In this document: one piece after another, positions 32,484 to 56,173 of the stretch
Position numbering within the stretch: the first letter of the stretch is position 1
Layout of the letters: the number at the start of each line of letters is the position of its first letter
Translations under genes and position numbers: made by a program
Notes under the pieces: model-generated
Seen by the model: only the letters and a program-made list of their open reading frames with translations
Database searches by the model: none
Told to the model about the DNA's origin: nothing
Source of the DNA: Pseudomonadota bacterium
GTDB taxonomy: Bacteria > Desulfobacterota > Desulfovibrionia > Desulfovibrionales > Desulfovibrionaceae
DNA: 64,000 nucleotides
Assembly: GCA_018817515.1 (NCBI GenBank)
Contig: JAHIUD010000024.1
Coordinates: forward strand, 1 to 64,000
Direction: 5' to 3'

Positions 32484-32845
32484 ATGCCAGGGGCGCTGCC
32501 CCTGCACCCCGGCAGGGTCTCTGCCCCTGGACCCCGCCGGGGGCAGCGGCCCCCGGACCCCCATCATACGCCGAGAGGGCTGTTTCAGGAGGAACCTGAA
32601 ACAGCCCTCTCGGCTTTCTTAGGGAAACCAGGGAAAAGTGTCTTTCTCTTGTCTTTCGGCTTCGCTCCAAAACGGGGCCAACCGTGTTCGGAGTATCGAG
32701 GGTCTTCCCTCGAAACTCCGAACACATTGCCAGGGCCAAGCCCAGCCGACGCATCTGCCCATGCCGCCCCAGGCCCAGGCCCTATGGGGAGTCCAGAGGG
32801 CCTTGAGGCCCTTTGGCGGGGGTGCCGGGGGCAGCGCCCCTGGCC
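32484..32845 (+). repeat. Dispersed 3' hairpin element, copy C
   Basis: This block follows the chemoreceptor-hemerythrin gene in the same sense. It contains G/C palindromes, a perfect 20-bp stem (32570-32589 and 32595-32614, loop AGGAA), the shared pyrimidine stretch, and a 19-bp stem with one mismatch (32684-32702 and 32707-32725, loop TCTT). Sequence around the second loop is conserved with copy A while several stem bases change on both sides. No gene is present here. Its end overlaps the 3' end of the convergent HdrD-like gene. Confidence 0.72.
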
Positions 32846-34080
32846 TATTCGTCCAGGTCCACGGCCTCGGCCAAGTAGTGGCTGAACAGGTGCACCTGGG
32901 CCGGGACCTCGTGGGCCTTCAGGCCGTCGCGGATGCCGTCCTCGCAGTTGTGGCAGGCGACAACTGCGATTTCGGCCCCGGTGGCGCGGATGGCCTCGGC
33001 CTTGGCCTTGGCTGTGGCGAGGCGCTTCTGCTTGTACTCGCTCATGAGCCCGTGGCCGCCGCCGGAGCCGCAGCAATAGGTGTGGTTGCCGTTCGGGTGC
33101 ATTTCGCGGAAGTCCGCGGCCACGTGGCGCAGCAGCAGGCGCGAGTCCTCGAAGTGCCCGGCGTTGCGGATGAAGTTGCAGGAATCCTGGAAGGTTGCGG
33201 GCTCCTTGTGAAAGTGCTGCTTGAGCTTCAGCTTGCCAGCGCGGAAGAGGTCGGCCCACATCTTCATGGGGGCCACCACCTCGAAGGGGAAGTCTCGTTT
33301 CAGCCAGTTCGGTCCCTCAAACTTGAGGGCGCGGATGGAGTGCCCTCACTCGGCTGAGAGGATCGTCTTGACCCCCAGGTTTTCGCCTGCGGCGACGACG
33401 CGCCCGGCCAGTTCGGCGGCTGCGGGGTCATCGCCCGCGAAGAGCCCGATGTTGGTGGAGTCCCAGCCCTTGGAGCTGGTGAGGGTGAAGTCGATCCCTG
33501 CGGCGTTGTAGAGCTTGAGGTAGTTGTACAGGTTCTGGGGGTAGAACTTGATGTCGCGCGGGTGGAAGGTGACGAGCACCTCCGCGCCTTTCTTGTCCAT
33601 GGGCGCACGTGCATCAGGCATCTCGCCCTGGAGTTCCTCCAGCTGCCACTCCACTGTTTCGAGGTAGTCCTCTTCGCTGATGCCGAGGTTGTTGCCGAAC
33701 TCCAGCGCGTTGGCCAGGCCCGAAGCCAGGCCCTGCGGGGTCATGCCCTGACTGACGGCCAGGGCGCGCGTGGCGCGCACCAGGAAGGCGATGTTGATGC
33801 CGTGCGGGCAGAACATGGAGCAGCGCTGGCACATGGTGCAGGTGCCGTAGACCGTGTCCACCAGCTCCTGCATGAAGGCCTCGTCGACGTTGCCTTTGCG
33901 GCGCATGAGCTCGGCCAGGGGCTTCAGGCGGTAGGCGGGCACATGTTCGGGCCGGGGATCGGACTGGTAGAAGTGGCAGCCCTGGGCGCACAGGCCGCAG
34001 CGCGCGCAGATCTCCATCCAGAGCTTGAGGCGCGCGCCGCTGCGCGAGGCCAGGGCTTTCTTGAGGATGTCTAAGTCCAT
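32845..34080 (-). CDS. HdrD/DsrK/TmcB-like iron-sulfur protein, probable selenoprotein (Sec245)
   Basis: Redox protein of 411 residues that would work with the membrane cytochrome b encoded just upstream. Two [4Fe-4S] motifs (C25/28/31/35 and C81/84/87/91) are followed by two CCG-type domains; the second is complete (C301, C336-C337, C376/C379). A UGA at 33346-33348 interrupts the frame at codon 245, yet the protein continues in the same frame for 166 residues. Homologues, as I recall them, have Cys in this ECGHS context, so the codon probably specifies selenocysteine. A SECIS-like hairpin follows. The ATG at 34080 has GAGGAG upstream. A simple nonsense mutation is the alternative. Confidence 0.8.
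33314..33329 (-). promoter_or_regulatory. SECIS-like hairpin of the HdrD-like gene
   Basis: Read on the minus strand, CCCTCA-AGTT-TGAGGG forms a 6-bp stem with a four-base loop whose second base is G. The loop begins 22 bases after the UGA at 33346-33348, within the range known for bacterial SECIS elements (about 16-37). Confidence 0.6.
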
Positions 34081-34097
34081 TGCGTCTCCTCGCGAGA

Positions 34098-34757
34098 TTA
34101 CCAGGCGCCCACGTTGCGCTTGCCGAAGTCGCTGCCGGTGACGGCGCGCGAGACGAAGAACAAGACGGCGTGGGAGAGCTTGGTGAAGGGCACGGCGAGC
34201 AGCATCAGATTGCCCGAGAGCACGTGCAGGGTGATCATGAGGTCGTAGTCGCCCCACTGGCGATAGGCCATGAGGCCGGTGAGCATGGGCAGCGTAGTGA
34301 GCGCCAGCACCAGCCAGTCCGAGGCGGTGGTCAGCGCGCGCACGTGGGGCAGCTTGACCCGCCGCCAGGCCAGGAACGCCGCCGAGGCCAGGAACAGGTA
34401 GGTCAGCCAGTCGGCGGCCTCGTCGGGCAGGGTGGGCCAGGACACGTTCCAGGCCAGGTCCACCAGCACCACGTGGGCCGAGAAGCAGAGCGCCACGCCC
34501 ATGAGCGCCAGGTGGAAGGCGAAGCCTGCGGCGGTGGTGAGCGCGTTTTCCCGCGCGGTGATGTTGGCGGGGATGAGCCAGTGCAGGATGCTTTTGAGCG
34601 CCCAGGCCGGGCGGAAGCCGCGCAGGGCGGCGGGGTCCGCGGCGCGGGCCAGGAGGAGGAAGCGCAGCACGCGCCAGCCTGAGCCCAGCAGGAACACGCT
34701 GAAGGAGAAGGCGAAGAGCGGTCCGGCGGCGAAATCATACAGGCGAAGCAGGGTCAC
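34098..34757 (-). CDS. NarI/DsrM-like membrane cytochrome b subunit
   Basis: A 219-residue protein with about five hydrophobic helices. Histidines placed in or near helices (ILHWLIP, FAFHLALMG, SAHVVLVD, ITLHVLSGNL, KLSHAVLF) fit heme b ligation as in NarI, DsrM and TmcC. It probably moves electrons between the quinone pool and the HdrD-like protein encoded 17 bases downstream. It starts with GTG at 34757 after GGAGG; the frame remains open upstream to 35075 but without helices or similarity. Confidence 0.83.
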   Translation of the reverse strand: MTLLRLYDFAAGPLFAFSFSVFLLGSGWRVLRFLLLARAADPAALRGFRPAWALKSILHWLIPANITARENALTTAAGFAFHLALMGVALCFSAHVVLVDLAWNVSWPTLPDEAADWLTYLFLASAAFLAWRRVKLPHVRALTTASDWLVLALTTLPMLTGLMAYRQWGDYDLMITLHVLSGNLMLLAVPFTKLSHAVLFFVSRAVTGSDFGKRNVGAW

Positions 34758-51118: not shown

Positions 51119-52513
51119 CTAGCTCACGGCTTGGCTGCCCATGTCCAGAGGCTCGTCTGCCTGGCCGGGTTCTCCCCGGCTCAGGATGCGCCGCAGGGTG
51201 TCCTTGCTGATGCCCAAGTCGCGGCAGGCGGCGTTGCGGTTGCCGCCATTGCGCTCCACGGCCTCCAAAGCCCCCCGGTAGCGGATGTCCTCCATGGTCG
51301 GTGGACGGTATGCGCCCGCGCCCAGGTGCTCGCAGGCGCGCACGTCGGCAGGCAGGTGCTCCACCTGGATGAGCCCGCCGGTGCAGAGGATGCTGGCGTA
51401 TTCGATGATGTTCTCCAGCTCGCGGATGTTGCCGGGAAAGGGGTGGGCCATGAGCAGGCGCAGGGCCTCGGGCGAGAGGTCCTGGATGTCCTTGCCCCCG
51501 GCCTGCCTGCGCCGTTTCAGGCAGTTGTCGATGAGCAGCGGGATGTCGTCGCGCCGGTCGCGCAGGGGCGGCAGGGTCATGCGCACCACGTTGAGGCGGT
51601 AGTAGAGATCCTGGCGGAAGCTGCCCTCGGCCACCATGCGATCCAGGTCGCGGTTGGTGGCGGCGATGATGCGCACGTCCGCGGCCACGCCCTCCACCCC
51701 GCCCAGGGGCTCGAACATGCGCTCCTGCAGCACCCGCAATATCTTGCCCTGCAGGGCCAAAGGCAGGTCGCCGATCTCGTCGAGCAGGATGGTGCCGCCC
51801 TCGGCCAGCTGGAAGCGGCCGGGCTTGTCGCGCCGGGCGTCGGTGAAGGCCCCTGCCTTGTAGCCGAAGAGCTCGGACTCCATGAGCAGGGCGGGCAGCG
51901 CCCCGCAGTTGAGCGCCACGAAGGGCCCCTCGCTGCGCGACGAAAGGTTGTGGATGGCCCGGGCGAAGAACTCCTTGCCCGTGCCGGACTCGCCCAGGAG
52001 CAGCACCGTGGCCTCGCTCTGGGCCACCTGCGGCAGGATGCGCAGGATCTCCTCCAGGTTGGGGTCGCGCGAGCAGAAGCCTTCGGGCGTGCCCTGGCCT
52101 CCCTTCTGGCCATTGGGCCGCTTGCCCGCCGAGCCACAGGAGATGTCGCGGAAGGTCTCCACCCCGCCGATGACCTTGCCGTGCTGGTCCTTCAAGGGCG
52201 CGGCGCTGACGCTCACCGGGATGCGCACTCCGTCGGGCCGCTCCACAATCATGATGCGGCCCGCGATCTTGCGGTCCTCTTCGATGCAGGCGCGCAGCAC
52301 GCAGTTCTCGGCGCAGCCCTCGGTGCGGAAGACCTCCCAGCACTTGCGGCCCACGGCCTTGTCCGGGTCCACGCCCACGATGCCGCCTGCGGAATTGCTG
52401 AAGAAGATGATGTTCCAGTCGCGGTCGACCGTGAACAACCCGTCGCCCACGGAGTCGATGATGAAGGAGCACAGCGAGGTGCAGGGGAAGGGTTTTTCAA
52501 GGGCGTGATGCAC
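51119..52513 (-). CDS. Sigma-54-dependent PAS-domain activator (GAFTDA variant)
   Basis: A 464-residue enhancer-binding protein. The N-terminal PAS-like domain (residues about 15-130) has a cluster of cysteines ([15 protein letters not shown]) that could bind a metal or sense redox. The AAA+ part has GESGTGKE, the loop GAFTDA in place of GAFTGA, DEIGDL and the arginine segment [11 protein letters not shown] Fis-type helix-turn-helix ends the protein ([20 protein letters not shown]). It begins with GTG after AAGGGG. It diverges from the gene at 52774, whose promoter region has a matching dyad and a -24/-12 box, so it probably controls that gene. Confidence 0.92.
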
Positions 52514-52669: not shown

Positions 52670-52685
52670 TGGCACAGGAGTTGCG
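52670..52685 (+). promoter_or_regulatory. Sigma-54 -24/-12 promoter
   Basis: TGGCACAGGAGTTGCG matches TGGCAC-N5-TTGCA with one difference at the last base and exact GG/GC spacing. Transcription would start near 52696, 78 bases before the ATG at 52774. Confidence 0.85.
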
Positions 52686-52773: not shown

Positions 52774-53343
52774 ATGGAACTCAACTTCACCATCTACGGA
52801 CGCTGCTGCGACCTGGCTCTGCACCCCGTTTCCCAGGCCACCGCCGACAAGATCCGGACCCAGGGGCGCGACATCTACAAGCAGAAGTATCTGGAGTGGT
52901 GGCGCCGGGGCAACACCTGCACCTGCGGCATGAAGCTGGGTGAGGAGTCCGTGGTCGAGGTGACCCTGGACGACCAGCCGGTGGACTTTGATCCCATCCC
53001 CGTGAAGGAGGCCGCAGTGCTGCTGCGCCGCCGCATGTACCTGGACAGCAAGGCCAAGTACCTGGCGCTCATGGGCTACGATGACGAGGTCTGCTCGCTG
53101 ACCTGGCATTGGGCCAATGTGCGGGACTTCGACGCCAGGAAGTTCGATTTCTTCGTACACCGCTGGGACCGCCTGCTCCACGAGGACAATTTCTACATCG
53201 TGGACGACATCCGCTACAACGGCCGCTTCTCGGACGACCAGTCCTGGGGCGAGCGCAACGGCCACAGCATGATCGACCCCGTGGTCATCGACCTCGACAG
53301 TGTACGCCGGGAAGTGCAGGGGGGCGACATTCGCGTAGCCTAG
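52774..53343 (+). CDS. Conserved hypothetical protein under sigma-54 control
   Basis: A 189-residue soluble protein with no recognised domain. It has a Cys pair early (YGRCCDLAL), a CTCG motif near residue 49 that might bind metal, and an acidic, aromatic-rich second half (RWDRLLHEDNFYIVDD). GGAGG precedes the ATG. It has its own sigma-54 promoter and a strong terminator, so it is a single-gene unit controlled by the divergent activator, upstream of the sulfur-carrier operon. Confidence 0.78.
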   Translation: MELNFTIYGRCCDLALHPVSQATADKIRTQGRDIYKQKYLEWWRRGNTCTCGMKLGEESVVEVTLDDQPVDFDPIPVKEAAVLLRRRMYLDSKAKYLALMGYDDEVCSLTWHWANVRDFDARKFDFFVHRWDRLLHEDNFYIVDDIRYNGRFSDDQSWGERNGHSMIDPVVIDLDSVRREVQGGDIRVA

Positions 53344-53553: not shown

Positions 53554-53811
53554 ATGCGTGAGACCTATCCCGAGCACTGGGAGTTTGAGGACGAGTTCGA
53601 CGGCGGCGAGGAGACCTGCGGCCGGGTGATCATCAACCTCTACACCTACCTGAAAAGGGCGGAGCCCGGCACCCGCGTGCTGTTGATCAGCCGCGACGCC
53701 GCCGCGCCCATCGAGTTCCCGTCCTGGTGCCGCATGACCAGAAACACCCTGCTGGAAATGGCCCACCCCTTCTACCTCATCGAATACAAACCCGAACTCA
53801 AAGGAGTCTGA
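53554..53811 (+). CDS. TusA-like sulfur carrier protein
   Basis: An 85-residue protein of the SirA/TusA fold. The C-terminal hallmark RVLLISRDAAAPIEFPSWC is followed by the usual helix and FYLIEYK. The active cysteine is C22 (ETCGR), but the CPxP of true TusA is replaced by CG, and a second Cys is C59. TusA proteins pass persulfide sulfur; some members of this family in deltaproteobacteria are selenoproteins. GGAGGTGA lies upstream, and dsrE-like follows one base after the stop. Confidence 0.82.
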   Translation: MRETYPEHWEFEDEFDGGEETCGRVIINLYTYLKRAEPGTRVLLISRDAAAPIEFPSWCRMTRNTLLEMAHPFYLIEYKPELKGV

Positions 53812-53812
53812 C

Positions 53813-54178
53813 ATGGCCGGAACCTTCTGCGTCACCATCGCCCATTGCCGCACCGACGGCGACAAGGCCACCCTCGGCTTTGTCGTGGCCAACGCCGCCC
53901 AGGGCAGCGAAAAGGAGACCATGGTCTTTTTGTCCACCGACGGCGTTTACTGCGCCATCAAGGGCGAGGCCGAGAAGATCGACGAGGGCGCGCCCTTTGC
54001 CCCGCTCAAAGAGCTCATCAACAAGTTCATCGGCGCGGGCGGCAAGGTCTATGTCTGCACCCCCTGCCTCAAGAAGCGCGGCCTCACCGAGGCCGACCTC
54101 ATCGAGGGCGCGGTGCCCGCTGGTGGCGCGGCCCTGGTGGAATGGCTGGCCAACGGCAGCCCCTGCGTGGCCTACTAG
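53813..54178 (+). CDS. DsrE-family sulfur-transfer protein
   Basis: A 121-residue protein of the DsrE/DsrF/TusD fold. It has FLSTDGVYCAIKGEAEKI and the cysteine pair C82/C85 in VCTPCLKKRGL, the position of the active cysteine in DsrE-like proteins, plus a late PCVAY. It probably accepts or donates persulfide from the adjacent TusA-type proteins. Tight spacing to both neighbours shows an operon. Confidence 0.88.
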   Translation: MAGTFCVTIAHCRTDGDKATLGFVVANAAQGSEKETMVFLSTDGVYCAIKGEAEKIDEGAPFAPLKELINKFIGAGGKVYVCTPCLKKRGLTEADLIEGAVPAGGAALVEWLANGSPCVAY

Positions 54179-54181
54179 CCT

Positions 54182-54952
54182 ATGAGCGGGAAGCTTGCGC
54201 CGCCGCCGGGGACGACTGCCGATGTCGTTTTCGACGGCGGCGATCTGGACTGCGGCTCGGGCCTGGTGCTCATGATCCGCGAGCACATGCTGCTGGTGCC
54301 TGTGGGCGGCGTGCTGGAGATGAAAAGCAGCGAGCCCACCGTGGGCGACGACCTGCCGCCCTGGTGCCGCATGGCCGGGCACGAGTACCTGGGCCGCATT
54401 GACGGTGCCAGCCCGGGCCAGGCTCCTGGCGTCGTCCGCTACTTTGTGCGCCGGGGCGCCCAGGAGCAGGCCGCCAGCGAGGCCAAGGCCCTGGCCGACG
54501 ACAAGGCCAAGGCCAAGGACTACGTCTGGCGCCTGCGCACCCGCGCCACCGGGCACCAGAAGGCCACGGTATACTGCCGCAACTTCTCCTGGGTGCTGGG
54601 GCAGAGCGCCAGCTTCGAGGAGAAGGACGCCCACCCGAGCGCGGTGGAGGCCCTGCTCGGGGCCCTGGGCGGTTCGCTGGTCACGGCCTTCGCCACCCAG
54701 TGCGCCCGCCGGGGCATCGAGGTGGACGATATCGAGCTCACCGTGTCCGGCAAATTGCACAACATCCTGGCGCACCTGGGCCTGGAGGAGGGCGACCCGT
54801 CCTTCGCCGGCATCGAGGTCAAGTGCTACGCCTCCACCCTGGACGACGAGGCGGCTGCGCGCGCGGTCTTCGAGGACGTGGTGGCGCGCTCGCCCATTGC
54901 GGCCACGCTGGCCAAGGCCACAACCCTCACAATCAAATTCGCGGTGGTGTGA
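54182..54952 (+). CDS. TusA-like/OsmC-like fusion protein
   Basis: A 256-residue protein. Residues 1-75 resemble TusA: GGDLDCGSGLVLMIRE with C24 and DDLPPWCRMAGHEYLG. Residues about 110-256 are OsmC-like (HPSAVEALLGALGGSLVTAF, VSGKLHN). OsmC and Ohr proteins usually have a reactive Cys where this sequence has GGS, so peroxidase activity is doubtful; C169 and C216 are the remaining candidates. A TusA-OsmC fusion suggests sulfur transfer coupled to a thiol-handling domain. It is followed by the MetE-like gene after three bases. Confidence 0.82.
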   Translation: MSGKLAPPPGTTADVVFDGGDLDCGSGLVLMIREHMLLVPVGGVLEMKSSEPTVGDDLPPWCRMAGHEYLGRIDGASPGQAPGVVRYFVRRGAQEQAASEAKALADDKAKAKDYVWRLRTRATGHQKATVYCRNFSWVLGQSASFEEKDAHPSAVEALLGALGGSLVTAFATQCARRGIEVDDIELTVSGKLHNILAHLGLEEGDPSFAGIEVKCYASTLDDEAAARAVFEDVVARSPIAATLAKATTLTIKFAVV

Positions 54953-54955
54953 CTT

Positions 54956-56173
54956 ATGACGACGCCCTCTCAGACGACCCTCTTTCAAACAACGCAGGTG
55001 GGCTCCTGGCCCCGCTCCAAGACCATGCTGCGCGCCCTGCGCGACCGTCGCGTGGGCGAGCTGAGCCGCGCGGCCTTCGACGCCGTGGCCGATGAGGAAG
55101 TGCGCCGCACCGTGCGCATCCAGGAGGAGGCCGGGCTCGACATCGTGGTGGACGGCGAGCACCGGCGCGACAACTTCTATTCCTTCATCACCGAGAAGGT
55201 GGAAGGCACCAAGCTCATGAGCCTGGCCGAGATGCTCGACGAGGTGGAGGACAAGAGCGGGTTCGAGGAGATGCTGACCACGCTGGATGTTCCGGCCTCG
55301 GCCATCCGCAACCCCACCTGCATTGGCAAGCTCAAACGCCGGGAGCCCCTGGCCCTGAACGACTTCCGCTTCGTAAAAAGCCTCACGGACAAGCCGGTGA
55401 AGATCACCCTGCCCGGGCCGTACCTCCTGAACCGCTCCATGTGGGTGGGCGCGTACACGGGCAAGGTCTACGAGAACCAGCAGGCCCTGGGCGACGACGT
55501 GGTGGCCATCCTGCGCGCGGAGTTGATCGAGCTGGCCGAGGCGGGCTGCGAGTTCGTGCAGTTTGACGAGCCGGTGCTGACCGAGATCGTCATGAGCCAG
55601 GAGTGCGGCCGACGAACCTTCATGTGAGCGACCTTAGCTACCCGCCGGGACGCGGGTGAAGAACTTCGGTACGCGGCCAGCCTCATCAACAGGATCATTG
55701 ACGGGGTCTTCGACCCCACGGGCAGGACCGGGCCGCGCATCGGCCTGCACATCTGCCGGGGCAACTGGAGCACCAAGGAAGAGGTGCTGCTGACGGGCGA
55801 CTACACCGCGCTTCTGCCCGCGCTGGAGCGCATGCACGTACGCCAGTTCGTGCTGGAATACGCAACCCCGCGCGCAGGCGACATCGGCGTGGTGGGCCGG
55901 GCCTTGTCCGGCAACATCCCTGGCACGGAGTTGCCGCACGAGCTGGGCCTGGGCGTGGTCAACCCGCGCACGGTGGAGGTGGAGACGCCGGAATTCATCG
56001 TGGAAAAGGCCGAGGCCGCGCTCCAGTTCTACCGGCCGGAGCAGGTGTTCCTGAACACGGACTGCGGGTTCGGCTGTTTCGCCAACCGCTGCGTCAACGT
56101 GGAGGACATCGCCGCCGCCAAGCTGAAGAGCATGGCCGCTGCGGCGCGGATCTTGAGGGAGCGGCACGGGTAG
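54956..56173 (+). CDS. MetE-like (cobalamin-independent methionine synthase II family) methyltransferase, probable selenoprotein (Sec224)
   Basis: A 405-residue protein of the C-terminal MetE fold. It starts FQTTQVGSWPRSKTML and has EAGLDIVVDGEHRRDNF, QFDEPVLTEIV and the zinc ligands H265 and C267 (GLHICRGNW) and C370 (TDCGFG). A UGA at 55625-55627 (codon 224, after RRTFM) breaks the frame, but the same frame continues for 181 codons to the normal end. Homologues I recall have Cys here (FMCxAL), which points to selenocysteine. A SECIS-like hairpin follows. Last gene of the sulfur-carrier operon; the methyl acceptor is unknown. Confidence 0.8.
55640..55657 (+). promoter_or_regulatory. SECIS-like hairpin of the MetE-like gene
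   Basis: ACCCGC-CGGGAC-GCGGGT forms a 6-bp stem with a six-base loop whose second base is G. The loop begins 18 bases after the UGA, the same distance as in Escherichia coli fdhF. Confidence 0.6.

Follow-up and report, generated by a model that had tools for sequence, protein, structure and literature searches.

The window analysed here, a whole stretch of 64,000 nucleotides from contig JAHIUD010000024.1, belongs to the 3.6 Mb draft genome of a member of the Desulfovibrionaceae and carries, at 54956..56173 on the forward strand, a MetE-family gene of 405 codons plus a stop, with an in-frame TGA at codon 224 (55625..55627, same strand) that we read as selenocysteine (Sec). This gene is the last of a likely operon lying on one strand, in which it follows a TusA-like gene (53554..53811; TusA E 7.8e-5, below the Pfam cut-off, with two conserved cysteines), a gene for a DsrE-family protein with a conserved CTPC motif (53813..54178; DsrE 8.9e-17; 76-96% identity across Sec loci) and, directly upstream, a gene for a TusA-like/OsmC fusion protein (54182..54952; OsmC 3.4e-11) that is present in all 45 distinct Sec loci. 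The first gene of the likely operon (52774..53343, forward strand, start codon inferred) encodes an unknown protein whose conservation does not extend beyond two near relatives, L011 and L012; its ORF, scanned from 52681, has no Pfam match. Ahead of it lie a sigma-54-type -24/-12 promoter-like site (52670..52685, forward strand; TGGCACAGGAGTTGCG), which is the best match in the window, and a divergent ORF on the reverse strand (51119..52513) that appears, by sequence reading and with no domain scan, to encode a PAS/AAA+ sigma-54 activator. The same combination precedes the operon in L011 and L012, where the site has counterparts and the ORF has orthologues. At the junction of the last two genes (54950-54956), the TGA that ends the TusA/OsmC gene is in frame with, and two codons before, the MetE start; we take it as an ordinary stop because its spacing to that start varies among homologues.

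Beyond codon 224, the same frame continues for 181 more codons to a TAG, so that readthrough would give a 405-residue MetE-type protein containing the zinc-ligand motifs HIC (265/267), E301 and C370. With the TGA taken as a residue, the protein is recognised by the Pfam model of the MetE catalytic domain (PF01717) at 101 bits against a cut-off of 21 (E 8.5e-29). A structural model built with 16 homologues (mean pLDDT 76) aligns with MetE of T. maritima (PDB 1xdj) at Z 34.5 and rmsd 2.5 over 333 residues with 25% identity, and membership of the PF01717 superfamily is thus met both by the Pfam match and by the fold, the latter as predicted by the model. The barrel fold, zinc ligands and homocysteine-binding residues are shared with the C-terminal catalytic domain of the T. 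maritima enzyme, whereas the present protein lacks the N-terminal folate domain, contains an unaligned stretch that includes residue 224, and is linked to TusA, DsrE and OsmC. It also falls far under the MetE family cut-off (95.5 bits against 929.95 for TIGR01371). The residues S17, E68, D204, H265, C267, E301 and C370 are kept in all 71 sequences compared and correspond to those whose roles in binding homocysteine and zinc in MetE are described in PMC7857596; the zinc ligands H, C, E and C (265, 267, 301 and 370) and the homocysteine residues S, E and D (17, 68 and 204) are therefore all in place.

Homologues are uniform at codon 224, beyond what chance would give. The codon is TGA in each of the 15 full-length homologues that a pattern scan of genome contigs recovered. 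Whole-genome searches of the window's class (348 genomes) and of a second class (258 genomes) each turned up 22 genomes with the Sec-type gene, with a single in-frame TGA in each gene wherever the site was covered. Relatives without a TGA at codon 224 occur in a third class, in 33 of its 148 genomes. Once duplicates were removed, there remained 45 distinct TGA genes, drawn from two classes of one phylum, and 26 distinct relatives at 41-49% identity: codon 224 is TGA, at exactly the same codon, in 45/45 of the former and Cys (TGC or TGT) in 26/26 of the latter, each of which is one continuous ORF, and no third codon occurs at this position in either set. A candidate relative from the Dehalococcoidia (L024) was left out of these counts because its frame is broken near codon 224. 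The Sec genes form a single clade in the tree (support 99/99), and therefore one change between Cys and Sec suffices to explain the distribution; the closest named relative found is a Humidesulfovibrio MAG, at 93% identity.

Just downstream of the TGA lies a SECIS-like hairpin (55640..55657, forward strand), in which a 5' arm ACCCGC (55640-55645), starting 12 nt after the TGA, and a 3' arm GCGGGT (55652-55657) close six pairs around the loop CGGGAC (55646-55651), 18 nt after the TGA. The DNA of this element is near-invariant, with the consensus ACCCGC-CGKGAY-GYGGGT in Sec genes, of which 41/45 can pair the stem over its whole length and 45/45 over its five inner positions; the full hairpin is found in 0/26 of the Cys genes checked. 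Synonymous entropy was compared over the 112 codons whose amino acid is invariant and at least fourfold degenerate; its three lowest values belong to codons 230, 229 and 234, all of them stem codons (CGC in 45/45, ACC in 44/45 and GGT in 41/45 Sec genes, respectively), while the adjoining codons 225-228 vary freely at synonymous sites. Recoding with each gene's own codon usage would be expected to retain the full hairpin in about 2% of synonymous versions on average. Folding energy gives no such support and was rejected as evidence, being unremarkable in this GC-rich DNA for the window's hairpin against dinucleotide shuffles (z -0.31) and not significant against synonymous recoding (mean z only -0.72); the case for the hairpin rests on conservation, not on energy. 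Its loop size, position and loop G agree with the bacterial SECIS described in PMC1088965, and the criterion of a conserved hairpin just 3' of the UGA with a G in a small apical loop is met. The original prediction, made from sequence alone, had placed the UGA at codon 224 with 181 in-frame codons and the zinc-ligand motifs behind it, had expected a Cys at this site in an FMCxAL motif, and had described a 6-bp stem beginning 12 bases after the UGA with its loop after 18: the reading frame and the hairpin geometry held exactly, and the Cys relatives do read FMCAAL or FMCGAL. Its further observation of GG in the loop holds for the window without being general, about 40% of homologues having CGTGAY.

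The machinery for Sec insertion is present in the window's own genome, with SelB at 381 bits and tRNA-Sec at 83.6 bits. SelB was found in 36 of the 41 Sec genomes tested, the remaining five being incomplete or fragmented drafts, and in all 25 Cys genomes tested, so the idea that the Cys form belongs to organisms without Sec machinery is rejected. Compared with four near relatives, dN/dS is 0.11-0.21 before the TGA and 0.15-0.25 after it, which shows that the second half of the gene is under purifying selection. On the strength of the codon-224 pattern, the single Sec clade, the conserved hairpin, the Sec machinery and the selected second half, we conclude that the gene very probably encodes a selenoprotein with Sec at residue 224, an inference from sequence without direct proof of selenium. 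SelB and the Sec-tRNA would decode UGA224, aided by the hairpin just downstream, and the product would be a 405-residue MetE zinc-binding catalytic barrel without the N-terminal folate domain. The earlier proposal of a probable selenoprotein is thus supported by the family alignment, and neither of the results named in advance as refuting it was obtained: relatives have Cys or Sec at the site without exception, and a truncated 223-residue product alone would leave unexplained the purifying selection on the second half, where all the zinc ligands lie.

Two other readings of the codon deserve consideration. Were the UGA an ordinary stop, the gene would encode a 223-residue protein or be a pseudogene; a standard gene caller would end it there, and the hairpin energy is, as noted, not exceptional. 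Against this stand the identical TGA kept in 45 distinct genes from two classes, the conservation of a second half that holds every zinc ligand, and the single continuous ORF of the Cys relatives, which together all but exclude it. Alternatively, UGA224 could be read through as another amino acid, Cys or Trp, and insertion of Cys would, by inference, be tolerable, as relatives have Cys there; the Sec machinery in the genome and the conservation of a SECIS-like hairpin at the expected place make this very unlikely.

The TusA/DsrE neighbourhood, which the first reading had also remarked upon, is real and conserved. The four genes lie on one strand in all 16 of the first loci as far as their contigs reach, and the operon is present in every Sec locus, the later ones included, that has enough flank. 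DsrE keeps its CxxC and the TusA-like domains keep two cysteines each, with CPxP replaced by C-G-x-G or C-G-R. In the Cys branch, three loci have a single ORF of 511-533 residues that joins TusA to the MetE domain (L127:9369-10955, L128:9091-10626 and L136:9322-10923) with a DsrE gene upstream, the TusA part scoring above the Pfam cut-off (31.4 and 30.8 against 28.6 for L127 and L136). Cys loci of the L042 type have an OsmC gene downstream of MetE. Rhodanese genes are neighbours in L129, L130 and L131, and in the last of these a YedF-like TusA-DsrE fusion (L131:7950-8567) lies close to the Sec-MetE operon.

How the enzyme works can only be inferred. Only three columns are Cys or Sec in all 71 sequences, namely 224, 267 and 370, and the latter two are zinc ligands. 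Since residue 224 is Cys or Sec in every family member, as are only two zinc-binding positions besides, Sec224 is likely to be a catalytic residue. It falls between D204, the substrate Asp, and the zinc ligand H265, in a stretch without an aligned counterpart in known MetE structures, 3rpd included; the structural model is unreliable over residues 206-231 and gives no usable distance from Sec224 to the zinc. We propose that the TusA-like, DsrE and TusA/OsmC proteins encoded in the same operon are the working partners of the enzyme, direct contact with TusA being supported by its fusion to the enzyme in Cys-type relatives. In the reaction we favour, a small thiol such as homocysteine would be bound and activated by zinc, with Sec224 taking sulfane sulfur from, or giving it to, the TusA/DsrE carriers. 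This inference from neighbours and conserved residues leaves the reaction unproven, and although we know of none more likely, we hold it with slightly more doubt than confidence. In a bolder version, the zinc site of MetE has been converted to sulfur chemistry in an enzyme that depends on selenium: sulfane sulfur would pass from the TusA/DsrE carriers to Sec224 and be exchanged there with a zinc-bound thiol such as homocysteine. This we consider on balance rather more apt to fail than to hold. Two observations count against a sulfur relay: the window's TusA-like domains are below the Pfam cut-off and lack the usual CPxP motif, and Cys loci of the L042-L044 type have, within the flanks seen, no TusA or DsrE beside the gene and only OsmC adjoining.

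The main rival to the sulfur-exchange reading accepts the same selenoprotein and makes it a folate-independent (core) methionine synthase, in which a corrinoid protein would donate the methyl group to zinc-bound homocysteine, Sec224 would have an assisting or protective part, and the sulfur carriers would either supply sulfide for homocysteine or be incidental; the methyl transfer is itself inferred. In its favour, all the homocysteine and zinc residues are retained, there is no folate domain, as in the core enzymes of PMC7857596, and three genomes (G813, G837 and G868) lack a PF02574 domain and have the Sec gene as their only PF01717 match. By these profiles, no other methionine synthase is found in the three, and theirs is either the Sec MetE protein or unrecognised; a MesB enzyme could, however, have escaped PF01717. 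A MetH-type synthase (C59) is encoded in the genome of the window itself, so that the Sec protein cannot be its only methionine synthase, and full MetH is present in the Cys-branch genomes tested. At 166 against 406 bits, the protein also stays far under all the cut-offs that NCBIfam sets for methionine synthases, and a TusA fusion would be unexpected for a methyltransferase. A core synthase remains possible.

Set against known systems, the protein resembles the core methionine synthases MesA-MesD (PMC7857596), which have a single catalytic domain and the same functional residues. The best PDB profile match for the combined Sec and Cys alignment is MesD (3rpd, E 7.4e-36), in which, however, Sec/Cys224 has no aligned counterpart, and a sulfur-carrier neighbourhood is undescribed for the Mes families. 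With the known bacterial selenoprotein families it has in common the UGA, the downstream hairpin, the Cys homologues and the SelB/tRNA-Sec machinery, yet no PF01717/MetE family is among the 119 prokaryotic families listed in a May 2026 review (PMC13188914); the DsrE and OsmC selenoproteins on that list are not the proteins found here. The TusA/DsrE sulfur carriers of PMC4175335 and PMC3397948 are related small proteins with a conserved Cys as partners; here they stand beside or fused to a MetE-type enzyme and not to sulfur-oxidation enzymes. No NCBIfam model of June 2026 is passed by the MetE-like protein, and the literature searched contains neither a description of a Sec MetE family nor a paper joining TusA with a MetE-like or selenoprotein family, while an unpublished or subscription-only report is not excluded. 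Within this incomplete coverage, the Sec MetE-type protein is in all likelihood a selenoprotein family missing from current lists.

Other in-frame TGA codons were noticed. Within the window, the reverse-strand gene at 32845-34257 has a TGA at 33346-33348 and encodes an HmcF/TmcB/DsrK-like Fe-S protein reading SAE-U-GHS, which resembles a listed selenoprotein family (Fe-S oxidoreductase-like, UGH motif); it is probably the first selenoprotein implied when the MetE-like protein was originally called a second. Elsewhere, a distant MetE paralogue (L047; G198:C197:17832-18659) has a TGA exactly at the zinc-ligand Cys, reading FGIHL*RGN against HLCRGN in paralogues, and an 8-bp hairpin (z -2.24) lies after it. 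This may be a second, independent Sec in the MetE superfamily or a sequencing error.

The Sec MetE protein would add a selenoprotein family to the MetE-type zinc alkyltransferase superfamily, where none is listed, and dozens of such genes of sulfate reducers would otherwise be mis-called as truncated. Sulfur amino-acid metabolism is only partly known in these bacteria, and here the conserved operon and the TusA-MetE fusions tie an active site of the homocysteine type to sulfur carriers. If the sulfur-chemistry reading is true, both the reaction, within the MetE superfamily, and the role of Sec would be new, and the distant paralogue L047, should its TGA at the zinc-ligand Cys prove to be an independent second Sec, would extend the picture.
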